Assembly: GCA_019635875.1 (NCBI GenBank)
Contig: JAHBYP010000015.1
Coordinates: 1-64,000 of the forward strand
Source of the DNA: Alphaproteobacteria bacterium
Lineage (GTDB): Bacteria; Pseudomonadota; Alphaproteobacteria; Reyranellales; Reyranellaceae
Length of the DNA stretch: 64,000 bases
Direction of reading: 5' to 3'
Part shown: positions 39,274 through 40,323 of the stretch, piece by piece
Layout of the letters: every line of letters starts with the position of its first letter
Position numbering within the stretch: position 1 is the first letter of the stretch
Notes under the pieces: generated by a model
The model's input: the letters and a program-made list of their open reading frames with translations, nothing else
The model's database searches: none
What the model was told of the DNA's origin: nothing
Program-made: the position numbers and the translations under genes

Positions 39274-40323
39274 TCACGCCGCGACTACGTCCTTCATGCC
39301 CTCGGGCATCGGCCGCACGATGCGGTTGTGCAGGCGGAACCTGCGGCTGAAGAGGACGTGGAACAGCAGCCTGGTCCACGACCGGTGGTGATAGAGGTGG
39401 TCGTAGAACTCCGGCGCCGCGGCGCGCACATCAGGCAGGCGCGACCACGGCACCTGGGGGAAGTCGTGGTGCTCGTTGTGGTAACCCATGTTGAACGACA
39501 GCTTGTTGAGCGGGCCGTAATAGGAATAGGTCTCCTGCCCCTCCTTGAACACGTAGTGCTCCTGGATCCAGCGCGCGCCCACCGGGTGCACGCCCAGCGA
39601 GAACAGGGTGGAGATGAACAGGTAGGCAACCGGCCACCAGCCGAAGAACCAGACGATCGGCGCCATCGCCGCGGCCATGGCGACAGCGTTGAACACCACC
39701 CAGCCGTCGACGGTGCGGATCGCCTTCACCGTGGTCGGCCGCAGGATGCCCTGCACCGCCCAGAACATGGAAAGCCAGAAGGTCTTGCGCCACCAGCTGT
39801 TGCCCACCCAGCGCGCCTCGGTCGGCGTCGGCACGTCGGCGTCCAGCCCGGGGATGCCGAGATACTTGTGGTGCAGCAGGTGGTAGTTGCGGAAGCCGAT
39901 CGCCGCCGGGAAGACGATGGCGATGTTGGCGAAGATCGAGCCCAGCCGGTTGGCGTTGGCGGTCCTGAACACGGCGTTGTGCGTGTAGTCGTGGATCAGC
40001 ACGAAGAGCGCGTGATTGACGAAGGCGCCGACGGCGTAGGCTGCGATGACGATCGCCCACCACGGCGCGTCGAGCACGGCAAGCCCGATGGCGATGGCGA
40101 CCTGCAGCGCCACCAGCAGCACCGTCCACAGCGCCGACCATGGGTCGCGCTCGAACAGCGCGCGCACCCCAGGGTGCGCGGCGAGAATCTGCTTCGCCCG
40201 CTCCGGGTGCGGCAGCGGCGTCTCAGTCTGCGTGAACGCCGCGTTGGGCGCTGTCTCGGCGACCATCCGGTCAGTCCTCATCAAGGGGACTTCCATATAG
40301 GCTGAACGCCGTTCAACGTCCAT
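39274..40323 (-). CDS. Fatty acid desaturase family, dihydroceramide delta-4 desaturase (DEGS)-like
   Basis: A 349-residue membrane di-iron desaturase. Three histidine boxes: HDYTH (111-115), HLLHH (148-152), HNEHH (282-286). Beyond the boxes the sequence tracks eukaryotic DEGS1/DES: ERAKQILAAHPGVRALFERD before the first helices, VFKEGQETYSYYGPLNKLSF and GYHNEHHDFPQVPWSRLP, then APEFYDHLYHHRSW. In eukaryotes this enzyme inserts the 4,5-trans double bond in dihydroceramide. Helices lie at ~65-85, 90-110, 185-230 and 235-250. Start at 40323 with GGGGA upstream; it diverges from an Ldh2-type gene by 35 bases. No serine palmitoyltransferase or ceramide synthase gene is in the window, so a sphingolipid substrate is inference. 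Confidence 0.88.
   Translation of the reverse strand: MDVERRSAYMEVPLMRTDRMVAETAPNAAFTQTETPLPHPERAKQILAAHPGVRALFERDPWSALWTVLLVALQVAIAIGLAVLDAPWWAIVIAAYAVGAFVNHALFVLIHDYTHNAVFRTANANRLGSIFANIAIVFPAAIGFRNYHLLHHKYLGIPGLDADVPTPTEARWVGNSWWRKTFWLSMFWAVQGILRPTTVKAIRTVDGWVVFNAVAMAAAMAPIVWFFGWWPVAYLFISTLFSLGVHPVGARWIQEHYVFKEGQETYSYYGPLNKLSFNMGYHNEHHDFPQVPWSRLPDVRAAAPEFYDHLYHHRSWTRLLFHVLFSRRFRLHNRIVRPMPEGMKDVVAA

Follow-up and report, generated by a model that had tools for sequence, protein, structure and literature searches.

A bacterial protein of the sphingolipid delta-4 desaturase family in a genome with a candidate ceramide pathway

Introduction

Descriptions of bacterial sphingolipids generally present them as saturated dihydroceramides. 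The 4,5-double bond, which separates dihydroceramide from bioactive ceramide, is treated as a hallmark of eukaryotes, and the DES family of enzymes includes bifunctional desaturase/hydroxylases. The eukaryotic proteins DES/DEGS1 and DEGS2 share with the bacterial protein analyzed here the Lipid_DES motif, three His boxes, the ETYSYYGPLN...HNEHHDFP stretch and overall size, although their first His box reads HEIAHN, whereas ours reads HDYTHN. In addition, eukaryotic DES belongs to an ER pathway, while the bacterial protein would act beside a bacterial pathway of SPT, bCerS, CerR and acyl-ACP.

The second system for comparison is the Caulobacter ceramide pathway (spt, acpR, aasR, cerR, and bcerS), and the genome studied here has a candidate for each of these five gene types. 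As described, that pathway ends at saturated dihydroceramide, whereas in this genome a DES is added to it. LptF/LptG-type transporters are found near spt here, and the gene arrangement around spt resembles that of Caulobacter (PMC11324152). Caulobacter also encodes a DesA-type desaturase/hydroxylase, CC_0202, which hydroxylates the acyl chain and not the base (PMC11324152).

Results

The gene was read on the reverse strand at positions 39274..40323 of the window, by which we mean the whole stretch of 64,000 nt that was analyzed, as 349 codons with no internal stop. The first-pass annotation was right in that this ORF is real and intact, but it placed the start at 40323, and this ATG is probably not the start. 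Translation more likely begins at Met20 (position 40266), giving a product of 330 aa, since in a congener two in-frame stops directly precede the codon corresponding to Met20, the orthologs start close to Met20, and AF2 confidence is lower than 50 for residues 1-27. Within the genus, orthologs are 91-93% identical to the window protein and lie in the same gene order.

The three His boxes named in the first-pass annotation were all found on this strand: HDYTHN (residues 111-116, 39976..39993), HLLHH (residues 148-152, 39868..39882), and HNEHHD (residues 282-287, 39463..39480). Across 18 bacterial homologs with 45-72% identity to the window protein, every His-box histidine is invariant (H111 and H115; H148, H151, and H152; H282, H285, and H286), as are N283, E284, and D287, so that box 3 is conserved in full and the motifs of this ORF go far beyond chance. 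The ETYSYYGPLN-KLSFNMGYHNEHHDFP stretch and the APEFYDHLYHH-SW tail were likewise found as claimed. The signature ETYSYYGPLN itself (residues 264-273, 39505..39534, reverse strand) also occurs in the human DEGS1 sequence used here and, in exact or close form, is common to most bacterial DES homologs. Nearer the N-terminus, residues 33-62 (40138..40227, reverse strand) match the Lipid_DES motif (PF08557) with 27.6 bits against a curated cut-off of 23, a score that is modest beside the 74 bits of this DEGS1 sequence; the same motif is detected in 17 of the 18 homologs at E 0.001 or better.

The Pfam FA_desaturase model matches the window protein with 102.7 bits (cut-off 29.7), and no NCBIfam model reaches its cut-off on it. 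As a yardstick we took a sequence representing human DEGS1; with 74 bits against Lipid_DES and 91 against FA_desaturase, it can be regarded as a good DES at the least. The alignment of the window protein to this yardstick runs end to end over 316 aa, with 37% identity and an E of 2.7e-71, while the three other desaturases of the genome align with the yardstick over short stretches around the His boxes only (best E 0.003). An ordinary acyl-CoA or acyl-lipid desaturase, DES-like in its His boxes only, would share the FA_desaturase domain as well; this reading is very improbable for a protein whose similarity to DES runs end to end, includes the N-terminal DES motif and sets it clearly apart from the three paralogs. 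We tested the window protein for grouping with ordinary acyl-lipid desaturases and found none: it passes the DES-specific Pfam model while the paralogs match in fragments, and we rejected this alternative on the full-length similarity and the behaviour of those paralogs. As judged from sequence, these results support the assignment of the window protein to the sphingolipid delta-4 desaturase (DES/DEGS) family as a bacterial member.

The AF2 model of the protein (pLDDT 87, pTM 0.84) has the predicted fold of the membrane diiron desaturases and AlkB. Fold searches returned AlkB alkane monooxygenase with a Z of ~15, SCD1 with 6-7, and a subunit of a chloroplast FtsHi complex with 19; no DES-named structure is among the matches listed. 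AlkB and SCD1 share the predicted fold of the window protein with 14-17% identity, and belong to different families. A sequence search of the PDB revealed no relative of the window protein. We also rejected a viral origin or viral relatives, since two scans of viral contigs gave no relative and the fold matches in BFVD are generic desaturases.

The genome was searched for a sphingolipid pathway, and both an SPT and a ceramide-synthase-type GNAT were found. More specifically, an alpha-oxoamine synthase (AOS) model detected two genes, an ALAS and a serine palmitoyltransferase (SPT); the latter scores 644 bits (cut-off 500), with the SPTs of Sphingomonas as its closest solved structures. It lies in a row behind genes for an aasR-type AMP-binding ligase, a cerR-type NAD Epimerase and a PP-binding ACP (L015, 5758-10090), a cluster of the bacterial ceramide type in which, as in Caulobacter and Sphingomonas, spt adjoins acpR, cerR and aasR. 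Downstream of spt are a CDP-alcohol phosphatidyltransferase gene and then LptF/LptG genes. FA_hydroxylase genes are also present in this genome.

A GNAT gene located away from this cluster (contig C10:161065-162186, L117; L123:15554-16696, reverse strand), next to genes for an ACP and a ketoacyl synthase (KAS), was located by its similarity to a GNAT that neighbors DES in an alphaproteobacterial relative (L039). Among 308 sampled Alphaproteobacteria, 39 carry both this GNAT and SPT, one each carries a single one of the two, and 267 carry neither (Fisher p 3.5e-47, a value that ignores kinship between genomes); in 24 of the 39, the two genes are within 20 kb of each other. This occurrence profile, matching that of SPT, makes the GNAT a strong candidate for the bacterial ceramide synthase (bCerS). 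A PF04339 gene (L007) that had been considered for the same role was set aside, as NCBIfam gives it no family and the GNAT has the SPT-matching profile. The genome thus holds a complete candidate pathway for bacterial ceramide, with SPT, ACP, acyl-ACP ligase, CerR-type epimerase, and bCerS-type GNAT.

The DES gene lies outside the ceramide cluster of its own genome, being on contig C15 while spt is on contig C1. It is flanked by an SDR gene on one side and an Ldh2 gene on the other, with sugar-ABC-transporter genes around, and this order is kept in the genus and in one sister genus. In the order of the window organism, SPT was found in 75 of 76 genomes and DES in 6, namely all genomes found in the genus of the window organism, one sister genus and one genome of another genus. 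DES is thus an accessory step, dispensable for the pathway.

When species genomes of bacteria and archaea were scanned, at least 564 DES relatives came out, in about ten bacterial phyla; the best 80 include Pseudomonadota, Bdellovibrionota, Myxococcota, Acidobacteriota, Verrucomicrobiota, Bacteroidota, Ignavibacteriota, Nitrospinota, and KSB1. Mucilaginibacter species (M. hurinus, M. gossypii, and M. myungsuensis) are among the carriers. Twenty of 80 DES loci have an SPT-family gene within 5 kb of DES, where less than 1 would be expected by chance on the rough assumption of three SPT-family genes per genome. Because most of these loci share one Verrucomicrobia-type operon, the number of independent arrangements comes to about five and not 20 (Verrucomicrobia, Acidobacteria L054, Methylovirgula L110, Nevskia L112, and Bacteriovorax L100). 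The recurrent Verrucomicrobia-type operon (L062, L070, L090, L092, and others) contains DES, an FA_hydroxylase (PF04116), an AOS, a CDP-alcohol phosphatidyltransferase and a GNAT. In the clearest case, Nevskia L112, DES is located within a canonical ceramide cluster, where it follows aasR, cerR, spt (678 bits), and a glycosyltransferase-like gene, with LptF further on; in Acidobacteria L054, DES is beside SPT, and in Bacteriovorax L100 it is near SPT-GNAT-cerR. That SPT-family genes are linked to DES homologs in more than one phylum independently supports a ceramide-type substrate.

Some of these loci have features of their own. The Verrucomicrobia-type operon resembles a bacterial set of DEGS, FA2H and SPT, and it was also found in a MAG labelled Acidobacteria, through transfer or misbinning. 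In Methylovirgula L110 (1515-5085), DES is near an AOS for which BioF is the top-scoring model, under the BioF cut-off; this DES branches elsewhere in the DES tree and possibly acts on another lipid.

The co-occurrence of DES with SPT was also considered at the level of whole genomes. A gene at the level of the SPT models is present in 35 of 46 DES-carrying genomes of many phyla, against 13% SPT carriers in the sampled Alphaproteobacteria, of which 1 in 308 has DES. These 35 comprise 8 genomes over the NF047599 SPT cut-off and 27 with a gene of at least 437 bits to NF047600; as most NF047600 matches fall below the strict cut-off (640), the calls in the 27 genomes are probable and not certain. 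In the sampled members of the latter group, the SPT model outscores the BioF/Kbl models, while two genes of 397-398 bits to NF047600 are Kbl-type. In 8 more genomes (six Verrucomicrobia-type and two Methylovirgula), an SPT-family gene is beside DES in the genome itself or in a near relative. As a side observation on the models, the Escherichia coli control genome also matches NF047599, apparently above cut-off.

The remaining 3 of the 46 DES genomes, where a convincing SPT is absent, would fit an alternative in which the target is not the sphingoid base but the fatty acid in amide linkage, or else some other N-acyl or long-chain lipid (e.g., a sulfonolipid or aminolipid). In the window genome DES and the spt cluster lie apart, which would fit it too, as would the AOS genes of the Verrucomicrobia operon, for which the SPT, BioF, and Kbl models give about the same score. 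We regard this alternative as rather improbable, given the clear SPT of the window genome itself and the genes linked to DES in Nevskia, Bacteriovorax and Acidobacteria, which are of the SPT and cerR types.

Discussion

The reading that we favor, and consider probable, is that the window protein is an integral inner-membrane diiron enzyme of the DES family that acts at C4 of dihydroceramide or 3-oxo-dihydroceramide, most likely to introduce a 4,5-double bond. The reading is based on the family by sequence, the intact ligands, the predicted fold, the candidate pathway and the linkage of homologs; from these we infer the substrate, the C4 position, a double bond over a hydroxyl, the electron donor, and action and topology at the inner membrane. 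The proposal of the first-pass annotation, a substrate type shared with eukaryotic DES, is supported as far as sequence goes by the pathway in the genome, the DES-specific match, and the linkage. Against the desaturase reading are the unlinked position of the gene in the window, its 6 carriers in 76 genomes, the modest Lipid_DES score, and topology.

In the proposed mechanism, SPT, acyl-ACP, ceramide synthase and ceramide reductase would provide dihydroceramide or 3-oxo-dihydroceramide as substrate. The diiron site would then attack C4 of the sphingoid base with O2 and two electrons, the likeliest product being the 4,5-double bond of ceramide. The window protein has no fused cytochrome b5 domain, and its electron donor would probably be of the ferredoxin type. 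The ceramide reductase of Caulobacter is periplasmic (PMC11087976), so that it is uncertain whether a diiron site facing the cytosol could reach finished dihydroceramide. A desaturase facing the cytosol may therefore use 3-oxo-dihydroceramide or dihydroceramide that has returned, unless the order of the steps differs in this lineage.

The main rival keeps the same family and substrate, and has C4 hydroxylation of dihydroceramide to phytoceramide as the principal reaction, as in DEGS2-type enzymes. Bacteriovorax, with its linked DES homolog (L100), speaks for it, as C17 phytosphingosine reportedly dominates the sphingophosphonolipids of Bacteriovorax stolpii. We consider hydroxylation unlikely as the main reaction of the window protein. 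The sequence features used here do not tell the two activities apart. Either way, desaturation or hydroxylation, some bacteria probably have ceramides that resemble ours in being unsaturated (or 4-hydroxylated).

DES enzymes form a known family; what appears new to the open literature that we searched is their place in bacterial ceramide operons. In the openly licensed literature, we found no paper on bacterial DES, which is weak evidence of absence. The presence of DES in such operons makes the production of sphingosine-type lipids by bacteria directly testable, and bacterial homologs are now on offer for an enzyme whose relatives we did not find among the sequences of solved structures.

The bacterial family is also relevant to where the eukaryotic gene came from. 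In our trees, which contain a single eukaryotic sequence (DEGS1) and have no usable root, the window clade consists of 7 alphaproteobacterial rows with support of 100/100 and forms a separate deep bacterial branch. DEGS1 joins by a long branch beside the Nevskia/Bacteriovorax clade (91/86 with outgroups), a position that depends on that lone eukaryotic sequence and on outgroups with very long branches. The trees are consistent with a grouping of the window protein with eukaryotic DES and do not prove it. The patchy presence of DES within the order might suggest a recent transfer of eukaryotic DES into the genus of the window organism. We find such a transfer scarcely credible, since bacteria of about ten phyla hold many deep branches of the tree, of which the window clade is one, and since the bacterial relatives of this clade outside the genus share 45-72% identity with the window protein as against the 37% of DEGS1. 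A broader view, that these roughly ten phyla make sphingosine-type ceramides by means of an old, operon-borne bacterial DES, from which the eukaryotic DES may derive, is one that we put forward tentatively, as possible and short of probable.

A separate observation concerns the large genus g3 of the same order, whose sole DES (L013 / L023, genome G039) groups with that of Mucilaginibacter. The contig that carries it has a lower GC3, about 0.75 compared to 0.9, pointing to a transfer or to a contaminant contig.
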